Program-made: the position numbers and the translations under genes
Source of the DNA: Muribaculaceae bacterium Isolate-110 (HZI)
Lineage (GTDB): Bacteria; Bacteroidota; Bacteroidia; Bacteroidales; Muribaculaceae
Reading direction: 5' to 3'
DNA length: 63,357 bases
Assembly (NCBI GenBank): GCA_003762875.1
Contig: RIBL01000017.1
Location: 1 to 63,357, forward strand
The notes under the pieces: generated by a model
The model's database searches: none
What the model was told of the DNA's origin: nothing
Seen by the model: only the letters and a program-made list of their open reading frames with translations
Shown here: positions 1,420 through 13,120 of the stretch, in pieces
How positions within the stretch are numbered: position 1 is the first letter of the stretch
Layout: each line of letters opens with the position of its first letter

Positions 1420-2625
1420 ATGAAAAAGAAAGTAGTTCTCGCCTTCAGCGGCGGTCTTGACACATCGTTTGCCGCCAAATATCTCTCGGAAGACCTCGGT
1501 TATGAGGTACACACCGCCATCGCCAACACCGGCGGATTCAGCCCCGAGGAGCTCGAGCGCATCGAGCAGCGCGCCATGGCTCTCGGAGCCGCATCACACG
1601 CCACTCTCGACGTCACAGGCGACTATTATGACAAGAGCATACGCTACATGATAGCCGGCAATGTGCTCCGCAACGGCACATATCCCATCTCGGTGTCATC
1701 CGAACGCATCTTCCAGGCCATCGCCATCATAGAATATGCCAAGAAAATCGGTGCCGACGCCGTGGCACACGGTTCTACAGGTGCCGGCAACGACCAGGTG
1801 CGCTTCGACCTGACATTCCAGATACTCGCTCCCGAGATTGAAATCATCACCCCGACCCGCGACATGACCCTCACCCGCGAGTATGAAATCGACTATTTGC
1901 GCAAGCACGGCATCGAGGCCGACTATAAGAAGATGGAATACTCCATCAATAAGGGGCTCTGGGGCACAAGCATCGGCGGCAAGGAGACTCTCCATTCCGA
2001 GCAGACTCTCCCCGACAGTGCCTATCCCAGCCAGGTCACCGCTCAGGGCGAGGAAAAGATGACCATAACTTTTGACAAAGGTGAGGTAGTGGCCGTTAAC
2101 GGCAAGCCTTATGCCGACCGCATCGAGGCCATACGCGAAGTGGAGCGTCTCGGCTCGCGCTACGGCATAGGTCGCGACATGCACATCGGCGACACCATCA
2201 TCGGCATCAAGGGCCGCGTAGGCTTCGAGGCCGCCGGACCCATCCTCATCATCGCCGCCCACAAGATGCTTGAGAAGCACACTCTCACCAAGTGGCAGCA
2301 ATACTGGAAAGACCAGATTGGCACATGGTATGGAATGTTTCTCCACGAGTCACAGTATCTCGAGCCGGTGATGCGCGACATGGAGAAATTTCTCGAAAAC
2401 TCTCAGCGCAACGTCTCTGGTACGGTCGAGATTACGCTCCGCCCGCTCGGCTACACCCTCGTGGGTGTCGACTCGCCCTTTGACCTCATGAAGACCGATT
2501 TCGGCGAATATGGCGAGGTCAACAAGGCCTGGAGTGCCGACGACGTGAAGGGATTCACCAAAATCCTCGGCAACCAGATGAAGATATATCACAACGTGCA
2601 GAAACGTAACGGTCTCGACGAATGA
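1420..2625 (+). CDS. argG: Argininosuccinate synthase
   Basis: 401 aa, the usual size for the shorter bacterial ArgG. It ligates citrulline and aspartate using ATP in the cytoplasm. The N-terminus carries the PP-loop A-F-S-G-G-L-D-T-S (residues 8-16), the ATP-binding signature. Further family blocks are HGSTGAGNDQVRFDL (near 126-140) and the Y-S-I-N-K-G-L-W-G segment (near 173) that shapes the citrulline/aspartate site. Start ATG at 1420 follows an AT-rich leader. The stop overlaps the argC start by 4 bases (ATGA), so translation is probably coupled. Having argG second in the operon, ahead of the early-pathway genes, matches the Bacteroides order. Confidence 0.96.
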   Translation: MKKKVVLAFSGGLDTSFAAKYLSEDLGYEVHTAIANTGGFSPEELERIEQRAMALGAASHATLDVTGDYYDKSIRYMIAGNVLRNGTYPISVSSERIFQAIAIIEYAKKIGADAVAHGSTGAGNDQVRFDLTFQILAPEIEIITPTRDMTLTREYEIDYLRKHGIEADYKKMEYSINKGLWGTSIGGKETLHSEQTLPDSAYPSQVTAQGEEKMTITFDKGEVVAVNGKPYADRIEAIREVERLGSRYGIGRDMHIGDTIIGIKGRVGFEAAGPILIIAAHKMLEKHTLTKWQQYWKDQIGTWYGMFLHESQYLEPVMRDMEKFLENSQRNVSGTVEITLRPLGYTLVGVDSPFDLMKTDFGEYGEVNKAWSADDVKGFTKILGNQMKIYHNVQKRNGLDE

Positions 2626-3584
2626 TCAGGGCCGGAATCATAGGAGGCGCGGGCTACACAGCTGGCGAACTGCTCCGTCTCCTCATCAATCATCCCGAGG
2701 TGGAGGTGGCCTTTGTCCACTCCACCAGCAATGCCGGCGCGCCCGTCACCGATGTGCACGAGGGGCTCATAGGCGACACCGACCTGACATTTGCCGATAG
2801 CTATGACCTCACGGCGTGTGACGTGTTGTTTCTCTGCCAGGGCCACGGCTTCAGCCGCAAGTTTTGGGAGGAAAATGTCATGCCCGAGGGCCTCAAGGTC
2901 ATCGACTTGGCCCAGGACTATCGCGACGAGTCGGACGGCTATGTCTATGGCCTGCCCGAAGTGAAGCGTGAGGCCGTCAGGTCATGCTCGCGTCTGGCCA
3001 ATCCCGGATGTTTCGCCACAGCCATACAGCTTGCTCTGCTCCCGCTTGCGGCGGCCGGCAAGCTCTCGGGCGAGGTGCATGTGACCGGCATCACCGGCTC
3101 GACAGGAGCCGGAGTCAAGCCCGGAAGCACCACCCACTTCTCGTGGCGCAACAACAATATCTCGGTCTACAAGGCCTTTGAGCACCAGCATCTCAAGGAA
3201 ATCAAGCAGACACTCTCGGCCCTTGACGGCGGCAAGACCCACGACATCAGCTTCATACCCGTGCGCGGCGACTTTGCCCGCGGCATCTTCGTGATGGCCG
3301 ACGTCACCACATCAATGCCTCTCGACGAGGCCGTCAGGCTCTACAAGGACTTTTATGCCGATGCCGAGTTTACGCATGTATCCGACCGACCGGTCGATCT
3401 CAAGCAGGTGGTCAACACCAACAAGTGTGTCATCTCGCTTGAGAAGCATGGCGACAAGTTGCTTATACTCAGTGCTATCGACAATCTCCTGAAAGGAGCG
3501 TCAGGCCAGGCCGTCCAGAACATGAATCTCATGTTCGCGCTTCCCGAGCACACAGGTCTCGCCCTCAAACCATCAGCATTTTAA
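2622..3584 (+). CDS. argC: N-acyl-gamma-glutamyl-phosphate reductase (operon copy)
   Basis: 320 aa. It reduces N-acylglutamyl phosphate to the semialdehyde with NADPH. An N-terminal Rossmann motif G-I-I-G-G-A-G-Y-T-A-G-E (5-16), the catalytic Cys130 in N-P-G-C, the G-S-T-G-A-G loop (159-164) and the His motif H-Q-H-L-K-E-I (188-194) are all present, so it looks fully active. Residues 245-300 hold the V-V-N-T-N-K-C and D-N-L-L-K-G-A-S-G-Q-A dimer and active-site segments. It overlaps argG by 4 bases. A second copy (9852-10823, minus) keeps the Cys but has lost one of the two histidines, so this is the one expected to serve arginine synthesis. Confidence 0.95.
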   Translation: MIRAGIIGGAGYTAGELLRLLINHPEVEVAFVHSTSNAGAPVTDVHEGLIGDTDLTFADSYDLTACDVLFLCQGHGFSRKFWEENVMPEGLKVIDLAQDYRDESDGYVYGLPEVKREAVRSCSRLANPGCFATAIQLALLPLAAAGKLSGEVHVTGITGSTGAGVKPGSTTHFSWRNNNISVYKAFEHQHLKEIKQTLSALDGGKTHDISFIPVRGDFARGIFVMADVTTSMPLDEAVRLYKDFYADAEFTHVSDRPVDLKQVVNTNKCVISLEKHGDKLLILSAIDNLLKGASGQAVQNMNLMFALPEHTGLALKPSAF

Positions 3585-8959: not shown

Positions 8960-9048
8960 CGATGCCGCTCCCCTTGTGTGAGGCGGTTTCAGCTCAGGCT
9001 CCGACAAGCCTGGCATGGACCTCAAAATTACATTTTTAACAAGAAACA

Positions 9049-9082
9049 GAGCCCGTTGGGATGCTTGCATCTCAACGGGCTC
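9049..9082. terminator. Hairpin ending the arginine operon
   Basis: GAGCCCGTTGGGATGC pairs with GCATCTCAACGGGCTC (15 bp, one G-U, loop CTTG), 90 bp after argH. No U-tract follows on the plus strand. On the minus strand it is followed by TCTGTTTCTTGTT, so it may also stop transcription from the other side. Confidence 0.6.
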
Positions 9083-9733
9083 ATCCACAGAGCGTCAGTA
9101 CGAAGCTGCGCTTTATTCTTCGCGCTCTTCAGTGTAAAAACAGTTTAGTTCTCTCATGTAATAAAGAATGGTGACATAAATGGTCATCTTTGGTAGTCAC
9201 CGAGGTAAGACAACGGTAAGAAGATTTTCTTGAATAGAGGACGCTTATAAAGCGTTGCTCATACGTGTATACGGCTGAAGGACGTGTACACGTGTGGCGG
9301 TGACATGCACCGACAGCGTGGCTTACGCGTGTGGACATGAAGGTAAGAGAGGGGGGAGTTGGGGTAGGTGTGTTACAGTACGAATGTCAAGTGTGAGATG
9401 TCAGACGCAAGTACACTCTTGAGGAGCAAGAGAGGAGAATTGTTTTACAAATCGGATGTGGAGTTTATAATGATGCGGTATTGATAATGTATGAACCAGA
9501 AGGGTGGGGAGGGGAGATACAGGTAATGCTTGGACGTTGTTTTTGAGAGTGGAAAAATTTTGTAGAGTCAAGGGTGTATCTTCATACGGTCCCGGGGGGA
9601 AGAGTGCGCTTCGGTAAAAAAACTGTAAGCGCGGGGAGCTAAAGGCATTCAGTTGTTTTTTATTATGACGAAAGTACTCCGCTTAGGGAAATCATTTTGT
9701 AGAGTTGAATTTTCGCTAAGAAGAATCAAATAA
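9083..9733. other. Gene-free, palindrome-rich gap between convergent operons
   Basis: No convincing gene is present. It is AT-richer than the flanks and contains several exact palindromes: ACGCTTATAAAGCGT (9241-9255), ACGTGTACACGT (9282-9293), and an imperfect hairpin GCGCTT...AAGCGC near 9607-9633 around an A-tract. A G-run block (9349-9369) and two copies of TTTTGTAGAGT (near 9558 and 9694) are also seen. The 69-codon minus-strand ORF here has no recognisable features. It could be decayed mobile DNA or an unrecognised structured RNA. Confidence 0.4.
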
Positions 9734-9780
9734 TTTGCCGTGACCTGCGGGGGATACTTGCCCCTACATGTCACGGCAAA
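9734..9780. terminator. Nested hairpin downstream of gltX-argC2
   Basis: TTTGCCGTGAC pairs perfectly with GTCACGGCAAA (11 bp) around an inner GGGG/CCCC stem. It lies 71 bp beyond the argC2 stop on the minus strand. The following U-tract is weak (AAATTATTTG), so a processing site or small structured RNA is also possible. Confidence 0.5.
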
Positions 9781-9851
9781 GGTATAGGTTTAAAATGTAT
9801 ATTCCAAATTTTTTGATAGATTTTTTTGAAATTTCTCAAAAAAACGACAGT

Positions 9852-10823
9852 CTAAAATGCCACCGGCTTCATGGTCAGACCCGTAGTCTCCTGGAGGCCA
9901 AACAGCAGGTTCATCGAGTGGACAGCGTTGCCGGCCGCGCCTTTGAGCAGGTTGTCGATGACAGCTGTTATGAGCAGCTTGCCGTCGATTTTGTCAAGGT
10001 GGATTATGCACTTGTTGGTATTGACCACATCCTTAAGATCGGGTATCTTGGAGGTGATAAACGTGAAGTTGTGGTCGTCGAAATAATCCTGATAGAGCTT
10101 GATTACCTCAGGCAGCTCAAGATTGCAGTCGAGATAGGTCACAGCCATTATGCCGCGCGAGAACGGCCCGCGCATAGGCACCATATGGAGCTTTGACGAG
10201 AAGCTCTGCTGCATGGCCGAGAGTGTCTGGACAATCTCGGCCTCCTGTGTGTGGCGAAAAGGCCTGTAGACTACCATATTGTCGTTGCGCCAGGCATAAT
10301 GGGTGGTTGGGCGCGCCTCGGCTCCCTCGCTTGTGGCCCCGGTGATTACGGTGGTGTGGATGTCGGAGTTGAGCAGCAGATTTTTGGCCAGCGGCACGAG
10401 CGAAAGCTCCACCACCATAGCCAGGCAGCCGGGATTGGCCACATGTCTGGCTCCGCGCACCATCGGTTTGCGGTTGAGTTCCGACAGTCCGTAGACAAAG
10501 TCGTGTGACGGGTCGGAGATGCGGTAGTCGCGCGACAGGTCGATGATGCACAGCGACTCGGGCACCTCGTTGGCGGCGAGAAACTCGCGCGTCTTGCCCG
10601 CCGGACGACAGCAGAACAGCACGTCGATCTCCTTGAGGTCATATGTGCTCGAGAAGTTCATGTCAGTCTCGCCGTGCAGGCCCTGATGCACATCCACCAC
10701 GCGCTGGCCGGCCACACTGCGTGAGTGTATCCATCTGAGGTCCACGTCGGGGTGGTTGATGAGTATGCGCACCAGCTCGCCGGCCGCATAGCCCGAGCCT
10801 CCTATTATGCCTGCCTTGATCAT
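9852..10823 (-). CDS. Divergent ArgC paralogue coupled to gltX
   Basis: 323 aa, clearly an ArgC homologue along its whole length, with roughly half of its residues shared with the operon copy by eye. It keeps the Rossmann motif [12 protein letters not shown], Cys133 in N-P-G-C, and V-V-N-T-N-K-C. Two active-site segments differ. The G-S-T-G-A-G loop is G-A-T-S-E-G (162-167). The H-x-H-x-x-E-I motif is H-T-Q-E-A-E-I (191-197), so the second His is Gln193. It overlaps the gltX stop by 4 bases (ATGA), so it is translated with glutamyl-tRNA synthetase and outside the arginine operon. It may be an ArgC with altered activity or substrate, or a non-catalytic partner. Function is not established. Confidence 0.85.
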
Positions 10824-12358
10824 GACTGCACCGGTTTGATTTCGGCCATGCCGCGCTCCATACGGCGCACGGTCTCATCGAGCCCGAGCAGTTCGGTGAT
10901 GTCGAAGATATGGGGGCCCTTGCATTCGCCCACCAGTGTCAGACGCCAGGCGTTCATCACGTTGCCAAGATGATAGCCGTTGTCCTCGACCCATTTGAGC
11001 ACCACGGGCTCGGCTTCGGCTCCCTTGAACGAGGGGAGAGCGCGCAGCACGCCGATGAGTTCGGTCATGATGGCCGGAGTCTCCTCCTTCCAGCGTTTGC
11101 GTATATCCTTCTCGGCATAGGTGTCGGGTGCGGTGAAGAAGAAGCGGGCCTGGTCCCAGAGGTCGGCCACAAAGTTGATGCGGCCCTTCACGAGACCCAC
11201 CACGCGGGTGATGTATTCGTCGCTGAAGTCGGCCGGATTCACGCCGTGGGCTTCAAGCACGGGGCGGAACAGCTCGGCCAGACGCTCGTCGGAGGTATTC
11301 TGAAGATATTCGTGGTTAAACCAGCGTCCTTTCTCGTAGGCAAACTTGGCTCCGGCGCGCGAGCAGTGGTCGAAGGAAAATTTGCTGATAAGCTCGTCCA
11401 TCGACATGATTTCGGTGTCGTCGCCCGGGCTCCATCCGAGCAGCGCGAGAAAGTTGATTACCGCTTCGGGAAGATAGCCCGACTCGCGATAGCCTGACGA
11501 CACGGCTCCCGACGCGGGATCGTGCCATTCGAGAGGAAACACCGGGAAGCCCAGACGGTCGCCGTCGCGCTTTGAGAGCTTGCCCTTGCCGTCGGGCTTG
11601 AGCAGCAGCGGCAGGTGAACGAAGTCGGGGCGTGTGTCGGCCCATCCGAAGGCCTCGTAGAGAAGCACATGGAGCGGAGCCGAGGGGAGCCACTCCTCGC
11701 CGCGTATGACGTGGGTGACCTCCATCAGATGGTCATCCACGATATTGGCGAGGTGATAGGTGGGCAGGTCGTCGGCACTCTTGTAGAGCACCTTGTCGTC
11801 GAGTATCGACGAGTTGATGGTCACCTTGTCGCGGAGCAGGTCGTTGACCACCACGTCGCGTCCAGGCTCGATGAGGAAGCGCACCACGTAGGGGGTGCCG
11901 CCATCCATCAGAGCCTTCACCTCTTCGGCGGGCATGGAGAGCGAGTTGCGCATCGACAGGCGTGTCGAGGCGTCATACTGGAAGTTGGGAGTGGCCGCTC
12001 GGGCGGCGTCAAGCTCGGCGGGGGTGTCAAAGGCGATATATGCCTTGCCGGCGTCGAGAAGCATATTCACGTGCTCGCGATAGATGTCGCGACGCTCGCT
12101 CTGCTTGTAGGGGCCATAGGCTCCGCCCTCGCGCACACCTTCGTCAATCTTTATGCCAAGCCATGCGAGCGACTCGTTGATATAGTCCTCGGCTCCGGGC
12201 ACAAAACGCTGAGAGTCGGTGTCCTCGATGCGGAGTATCATGTCACCGCCGTGACGGCGGGCGAAAAGATAGTTATAAAGGGCAGTGCGCACTCCTCCGA
12301 TATGAAGGGGGCCTGTGGGAGAGGGGGCAAATCTTACTCTGACTTTACGGTCCATCAA
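10820..12358 (-). CDS. gltX: Glutamyl-tRNA synthetase
   Basis: 512 aa, a class I aminoacyl-tRNA synthetase charging tRNA-Glu. The HIGH-type motif [12 protein letters not shown] (11-22) and KMSKS-type motif K-L-S-K-R-D-G (about 259-265) are intact. R-I-E-D-T-D (43-48) follows the first motif as in all GluRS. The C-terminal all-helical anticodon-binding region is full length. No GluQRS-like truncation is seen. It is followed by the argC paralogue with ATGA overlap. A possible minus-strand -7 box TAATTTTG lies at 12384-12391. It is divergent from rex across 126 bp, so Rex control of both sides is possible but no clear Rex operator was recognised. Confidence 0.95.
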
Positions 12359-12445
12359 TATTTAATTTACAAAATTTTAGCAACAAAATTAGCGAAAAAA
12401 CATGGCATAACTGTGATGTCGGGATGATTTTTAGCAAAAAATTTG

Positions 12446-12453
12446 TACTTTTG
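12446..12453 (+). promoter_or_regulatory. -7 box of rex
   Basis: TACTTTTG fits TAnnTTTG and lies 31 bp before the rex ATG. The -33 element is not clear. Confidence 0.5.
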
Positions 12454-12484
12454 CGCTATTAACAGGTATAAAACAGTCTGACCG

Positions 12485-13120
12485 ATGGAATCATCCAAGC
12501 CCCCATATGTCCCCGAGCCGGCCATACGCCGTCTGCCGTGGTATCTTGCGAGCGTGCAACGGTTGCGTGCACAGGGCGTGGAGCATGTATCCTCCACCGC
12601 CATATCAAAGATGCTCAACGTGGATGCTTCGCAGATAGCCAAAGACCTTTCTTACCTCAATATCAAGGGCAAGACCCGCATCGGATATGAGGTGGCCGAG
12701 CTGGAGTGCGGACTCAACGACTTCCTGGGTTTCCACCAGTGTCACCGGGCTGTCATGATGGGCGTGGGCAGTCTCGGACGTGCCTTGATCACCGACTCGG
12801 GTCTCTCGCGCTACGGCCTGAAAATCGTGGCCGGATTTGATGTGGACCCCGATGTGATAGGCACCGAAATCGGTGGCACACCCGTTTTTGACATCTCCGA
12901 GCTCAAAGCGCGCCGCCAGGCTCTGAACGCCGAGATTGCAGTCATAGCCGTGCCAGTGGAAAATGCGGCCGAGGTGGCCGACCTGTGTGTGGAGTCGGGC
13001 ATCAAGGCTCTCTGGAACTTCACACCGTTTCATATCAAGACATCTCCCGAAATCACGATCGAGAACACATCAATCTATGCCCACCTGGCCTTGATGTACA
13101 ACCGCATGGAGCAGAAATGA
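12485..13120 (+). CDS. rex: Redox-sensing transcriptional repressor Rex
   Basis: 211 aa, the normal Rex length. An N-terminal winged helix (about 10-80) includes V-S-S-T-A-I-S-K-M-L-N-V-D-A-S-Q-I-A-K-D (40-59), the DNA-reading helix region. A Rossmann domain follows, with G-V-G-S-L-G-R-A-L (97-105) for NADH, and a C-terminal domain-swap helix. Rex represses fermentation and respiration genes and leaves DNA when NADH/NAD+ is high. Start ATG at 12485 follows a good -7 box. The stop overlaps the next start by 4 bases, so the following FAH-like protein is co-translated with it. Confidence 0.93.
   Translation: MESSKPPYVPEPAIRRLPWYLASVQRLRAQGVEHVSSTAISKMLNVDASQIAKDLSYLNIKGKTRIGYEVAELECGLNDFLGFHQCHRAVMMGVGSLGRALITDSGLSRYGLKIVAGFDVDPDVIGTEIGGTPVFDISELKARRQALNAEIAVIAVPVENAAEVADLCVESGIKALWNFTPFHIKTSPEITIENTSIYAHLALMYNRMEQK

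Follow-up and report, generated by a model that had tools for sequence, protein, structure and literature searches.

The window, i.e., the whole stretch of 63,357 nucleotides analysed here, derives from Muribaculaceae bacterium Isolate-110 (HZI) and carries two genes for ArgC-like proteins, one of them within an arginine operon and the other, argC2, directly behind the glutamyl-tRNA synthetase gene gltX. The features that matter for the argument are the following, with the roles of the two substrate-binding motifs taken from PMC10170137.

1420-8959, plus strand: argG-argC-argD-argF'-argB-argE-argH operon (NCBIfam labels)
2622-3584, plus strand: argC1, intact ArgC gene of the arginine operon, grouping outside the native lineage (sequence, tree)
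9852-10823, minus strand: argC2, disarmed native ArgC homologue of 323 aa (TIGR01850; AlphaFold2 fold)
10425-10427, minus strand: Cys133 codon of argC2, kept in the genus (sequence)
10323-10340, minus strand: G162-A-T-S-E-G167 of argC2, in place of GSTGAG with the substrate-loop GAG motif (PMC10170137)
10245-10253, minus strand: H191-T192-Q193 of argC2, in place of HxH (PMC10170137)
10071-10076, minus strand: D250-H251 of argC2, part of the lineage signature (sequence comparison)
9918-9920, minus strand: H302 of argC2, part of the lineage signature (sequence comparison)
10820-12358, minus strand: gltX, glutamyl-tRNA synthetase, the upstream partner gene (PF00749 and PF19269; TIGR00464, 433.3 bits)
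10820-10823, minus strand: ATGA stop/start overlap of gltX and argC2 (sequence)

Among the NCBIfam labels of the operon, ArgG, ArgB, and ArgH lie above the curated cut-offs, and ArgD, ArgF', and ArgE are best matches below the cut-off. The argC gene of the operon lies 6.3 kb from argC2, and the 3′ end of the operon lies 0.9 kb from it; the first-pass annotation had placed a complete arginine operon with its own ArgC at 7 kb. The genes argH and argC2 are convergent, and the ~0.9 kb that separate them (8960-9851) contain no clear gene. Beside argG, at 662-1333 on the plus strand, lies a gene with a weak GNAT-type acyltransferase match (PF00583, E 1.5e-5); because neither ArgA nor ArgJ was seen in the operon, one may guess that this gene provides the first (acyl-glutamate) step. 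On the other side of argC2, a Rex redox-sensing repressor gene (12485-13120, plus strand) is divergent from gltX, and the Rex/gltX pair recurs in same-genus loci. A scan of 9500-12700 for promoters and terminators found no minus-strand signal above chance.

In the structure of the Denitrovibrio ArgC, as described in PMC10170137, the catalytic site consists of Cys149 and an HRH motif (208-210) that binds the substrate phosphate and carbonyl, and residues 182-184, a GAG motif, form part of the lining of the substrate channel; engineered DaArgC variants starting with G182V show ~0.1-0.2% of the native turnover, a single change in GAG being enough to reduce it to ~0.2%. ArgC1 of the window aligns with this enzyme at GAG and HRH, and all of its active-site elements are intact (C130, H188-Q-H190, GSTGAG). 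The argC2 protein, which is 50% identical to ArgC1 across 323 columns, belongs to the ArgC family by its TIGR01850 score (247.2 bits; cut-off 233.6), and its AlphaFold2 model (pLDDT 91.1, with loop 166-172 below 50) matches 1vkn best among PDB entries (TM 0.89), the top matches all being ArgC structures. The catalytic cysteine is present as C133 within NPGC. However, the HxH motif reads H-T-Q, and the GAG of the substrate channel reads S-E-G, suggesting that the argC2 protein is inactive as a reductase. These residues had been pointed out in the first-pass annotation, together with the overlap with gltX, and all of them were found as described: gltX ends in TCA TGA and argC2 starts with ATG ATC, so that ATGA is common to both. 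The reading frame lies on the minus strand, which the annotation had left unstated.

A search of 247 Muribaculaceae genomes, 27 of them from the genus of the window, found a homologue 70-100% identical to the argC2 protein in 23 of the 27 (the window's own genome included), and the four without one (G196, G225, G235, and G245) are 57-87% complete. All 23 homologues keep the catalytic cysteine and have replaced the second His by Gln (HTQ, HSQ, HPQ, HQQ, or HHQ); because none departs from this, the active-site change in argC2 is not due to chance. The substrate loop is conserved within the genus as T-G-[AS]-T-[SC]-x-G.

The family-wide census covered 225 Muribaculaceae genomes, each at least 90% complete, using an ArgC-like profile built from 34 disarmed proteins. 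An ArgC-like gene was found in 221 of them, compared with ArgG in 106, ArgH in 105, and ArgF' in 104. Among the 119 genomes without ArgG, 116 have an ArgC-like gene (the exceptions being G198, G212, and G254), none has ArgH, and a single one (G039) has ArgF'. Since this profile picks up intact and foreign ArgC as well, a match alone is no proof of disarming; sequences were therefore inspected for 75 of these 116 matches, and all 75 are disarmed. The cysteine itself is absent from 71 of them, and the other four, all from the window's genus, combine the cysteine with HxQ. That most relatives of argC2 have lost the cysteine had escaped the first-pass annotation. Its expectation that orthologues would lack HxH holds for the same-genus homologues and does not hold for the arg-operon orthologues from ArgG-positive genomes of the family, which keep Cys and HQH in 20 of 20 cases. 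Because these orthologues are intact, active-site loss accompanies loss or replacement of the pathway. In addition, arg-linked loci are intact at both sites (25/25; L012-L036), and a second, native-type copy inspected in 20 ArgG-positive genomes of other genera lacks the cysteine in every case. Four drafts, 90-95% complete, depart from this picture: G284 is ArgG-positive with no ArgC-like match; G018 has a single ArgC, intact and of the foreign type (A251, Q302), with the native copy absent; and in G079 and G266, both ArgG-positive, the one copy seen is disarmed, the same searches finding no ArgF' in either and no ArgH in G266. Since genomes that lack ArgG, ArgH, or ArgF' still retain disarmed relatives, a role outside arginine synthesis is strongly indicated.

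Two side observations may be added. In five cysteine-less loci of genus g22 (L154, L157, L164, L175, and L177), a long additional stretch replaces the substrate loop, and neither argR nor gltX is adjacent. Four records titled Paenibacillus, Staphylococcus, Bacteroides, and Lachnospiraceae (L005, L006, L008, and L016, respectively) contain Muribaculaceae-type genes, and their MAG titles look wrong.

To look outside Muribaculaceae, 295 genomes were drawn from across the order; they yielded 95 ArgC-like matches, five of them within the family, which leaves 90 matches for 290 genomes. Most of the outside genomes have no match at E 1e-15. Twenty of the 90 outside matches, mostly low-scoring ones, were inspected, and 18 are intact. 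The remaining two, L281 (G318), which lies beside argR, and L283 (G536), come from two other families of the order and are disarmed, showing that disarming is not strictly confined to Muribaculaceae, although it was seen to be nearly universal in this family alone.

Taken together, we consider it probable that argC2 is a native ArgC whose reductase activity has been switched off and which is kept for a second, non-catalytic job. Several other explanations have to be weighed against this one. The argC2 protein might instead be a new enzyme, in which NADPH reduces a Cys133 thioester and the SEG loop together with HTQ chooses a new acyl or acyl-phosphate substrate. In the tree, 12 of 12 same-genus rows retain Cys133, the GxxGxxG start, and the majority of the cofactor-side residues, the model folds well, and the loop is conserved within the genus; with Cys133 and the glycines of the cofactor loop kept, some chemistry may be possible there. 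However, such a role would be novel to the window's genus. None of the 91 disarmed rows that belong to other genera of the family has the cysteine, and the function that they share and retain therefore cannot use it. A new enzyme is thus an unlikely explanation.

The gene neighbourhood bears on two further explanations. Upstream landmarks were tallied within 6 kb of 100 loci from the same and other genera (99 disarmed loci plus L162): argR was found at 56, gltX-waaA at 16, gltX at 8, waaA at 2, gltX-waaA-argR at 1, and none of them at 17, with waaA (PF04413) and argR (PF01316, PF02863) assigned by Pfam on representatives. The frequent argR-argC' pairs, which often overlap, could mean that disarmed ArgC acts as a co-regulator with ArgR or as a sensor of an arginine-pathway ligand, and the disarmed L281 outside the family likewise lies beside argR. 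However, ArgR was found in only 3 of 20 genomes searched, and it was not found in any of the nine from the window's genus, which retain the protein. The adjacency is also expected, because argR was already part of the ancestral operon: native intact loci show the order argR-GNAT-argG-argC. A role tied to ArgR is therefore quite improbable.

The other neighbour, gltX, was the basis of the proposal that the argC2 protein and GltX are produced together through translational coupling, the former acting as partner or regulator of the latter. Within the genus, gltX is directly upstream in 17 of 23 loci and separated by waaA in another 5, a contig end cutting the remaining one, and several other genera also show gltX upstream. 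The linkage expected by the first-pass annotation thus holds for 22 of 23 same-genus loci, but argR takes this place directly upstream at the 56 tallied loci mentioned above. Moreover, the ATGA overlap (-4) occurs in just 9 of the 17 directly linked same-genus loci, the other 8 having gaps of -1 to +156 nt. The arrangement in intact relatives explains the adjacency. The genes gltX-waaA-argR-(GNAT-)argG-argC stand in a row in 4 of 20 native regions, three from one genus (L288, L290, and L307) and one from another (L301, in which GNAT was not detected); in L289, gltX lies ~5.7 kb upstream of argR, and G109 preserves an intermediate, gltX-waaA-argR-argC'. Because intact relatives show this single cluster, the gltX adjacency can best be read as a deletion leftover, and the gltX-argC2 link is most likely a relic of the older cluster. 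In the simplest reading of the gene orders, some lineages would have lost the arg genes lying between gltX-waaA and argC, and others just GNAT-argG. The adjacency may also have arisen through repeated insertion at the same site, given that the full gltX cluster is found in just 4 of 20 native regions, with three of these from one genus. The GNAT gene upstream of argG is kept in native loci. Coupling to GltX as the main explanation was rejected on the basis of the context tally, the intact cluster, and an ATGA overlap that is not general. From the earlier suggestion of a new role, a role outside arginine synthesis stands, but a link specific to GltX does not, with gltX, with or without waaA, and no argR at only 24 of the 100 loci. 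A partnership with GltX is accordingly very doubtful.

It is harder still to accept that argC2 encodes a working ArgC for arginine synthesis, perhaps a slow or conditional one. Its score above the NCBI equivalog cut-off and the retained Cys133 would fit, but HxH and GAG are both changed, an intact ArgC1 is encoded in the same genome, and the closest same-motif relatives belong to genomes without ArgG, ArgH, and ArgF' (G073, G130, G161, and G170). Neither the protein nor these relatives thus appear to serve the arginine pathway.

Least credible of all is a decaying gene without function, as the loss of active-site residues and the fast divergence of many family members might suggest (41% mean identity over 600 sampled pairs of cysteine-less rows), because the frame is open in 116 of 119 ArgG-negative genomes, dN/dS is well below 1, and at least 20 positions are invariant in the 91 diverged proteins. 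NG86 gave dN/dS of 0.020-0.196 for the 21 of 26 close-homologue pairs with finite dS (5 were saturated), ratios that are rough because many dS values exceed 1; one of the 26 pairs is repeated, L005 and L087 being the same locus, and YN00 gave no estimate for 11 pairs. More than 20 positions are invariant or nearly so across the 91 cysteine-less rows. The low ratios and the invariant positions show that the disarmed genes are not decaying, and the pseudogene reading of argC2 was rejected on dN/dS, unless the selection data should prove artefactual. Pseudoenzymes are an already known kind of protein, and the disarmed ArgC set resembles them in both respects, i.e., essential active-site residues are missing from 105 disarmed rows (103 without L281 and L283, which come from outside the family) and purifying selection acts on the genes.

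How often the active site was lost was estimated from a tree of 159 rows, computed after removal of the catalytic columns by a quick IQ-TREE search with SH-aLRT support only and excluding L162, a fragment of an intact ArgC. The disarmed/intact label requires four changes, four being also forced by branches with SH-aLRT ≥ 95, and the cysteine alone requires five; with an intact ancestor and no regain on the same topology, four losses result. The clear cases are L173, with the intact L250 and L251 beside it, and L179, with the intact L252 beside it. Because support for the deep branches is weak, four losses are a floor under this tree rather than an exact number; the active site was lost at least four times. 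In the same tree, ArgC1 of the window clusters with L063, L068, L080, and L081, outside the native lineage, suggesting that the arginine operon of the window was acquired by gene transfer.

The native lineage is marked by H251 and H302: all 105 disarmed rows and all 20 native intact rows have both residues, as compared with 1 of 34 other intact rows. This signature was selected from these very data and is in part explained by common descent. The foreign ArgC proteins inspected in the same genomes lack the pair. A gain of these residues after disarming was considered and rejected, since native intact ArgC also has both, which makes them a lineage mark. The pattern fits a role that predates disarming and is not met by foreign ArgC, and the two residues may be taken as a lead to the second role.

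The retention of a switched-off native ArgC for a non-catalytic job could have come about as follows. ArgC of Muribaculaceae would have had two jobs, i.e., synthesis of N-acyl-glutamate semialdehyde and a second one independent of the active site. When arginine synthesis was lost, the other arg genes would have disappeared and the ArgC protein would have been retained, subsequently losing its catalytic cysteine; in the window's genus, it would instead have lost the GAG loop and the second of the two histidines. The window's genus would later have regained arginine synthesis through a different, compact operon, whose ArgC1 has no native signature residues and was evidently no replacement for the old protein. 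The loss of argR-GNAT-argG (and waaA) from gltX-waaA-argR-GNAT-argG-argC would have left the gltX-argC2 pair. As to the mechanism, the folded and probably oligomeric ArgC scaffold may bind a ligand or a partner protein, with D250-H251 and H302 forming part of the binding surface. Disarmed ArgC is retained whether or not ArgR or arginine synthesis is present, and its neighbouring genes vary.

In its widest form, the proposal is that a second, non-catalytic function of ArgC was important enough to preserve the protein in nearly all Muribaculaceae genomes, across four or more separate losses of the active site and of arginine synthesis, that foreign ArgC cannot fill this function, and that the dead ArgC of arginine auxotrophs serves as a dedicated scaffold or regulator; towards this broader claim we lean only slightly. 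Pathway loss normally takes all its enzymes along. An enzyme that is repeatedly disarmed and yet retained while its pathway partners disappear points to a hidden second role of a textbook enzyme, and disarmed ArgC offers a clean natural separation of this role from the catalytic one. There is also a practical consequence: because the argC2 protein passes the NCBI equivalog cut-off despite its altered active site, the presence of argC in gut metagenomes does not equal arginine synthesis. The literature outside subscription papers reported neither an ArgC pseudoenzyme nor ArgC in Muribaculaceae, and a repeatedly disarmed, family-wide ArgC is new as far as searched.

Among known systems, ArgC itself (TIGR01850; 1vkn, 8afu, and 2i3g) shares with argC2 the fold, the catalytic cysteine, and a score above the cut-off; however, argC2 has HTQ for HxH and SEG for GAG, and its relatives are retained without the arginine pathway. 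Thermus LysY (5ein, 5eio) has the same fold as the argC2 model (TM 0.87-0.88) but, according to the alignment, keeps the HRH motif, and among the neighbours of argC2 no LysW gene of lysine or arginine synthesis was noted. The trypanosome AdoMetDC prozyme (PMC6221367) is like argC2 a dead relative of a biosynthetic enzyme that is retained by selection. However, the prozyme pairs with a live paralogue, whereas most disarmed ArgC proteins are not accompanied by a live ArgC in their genome.
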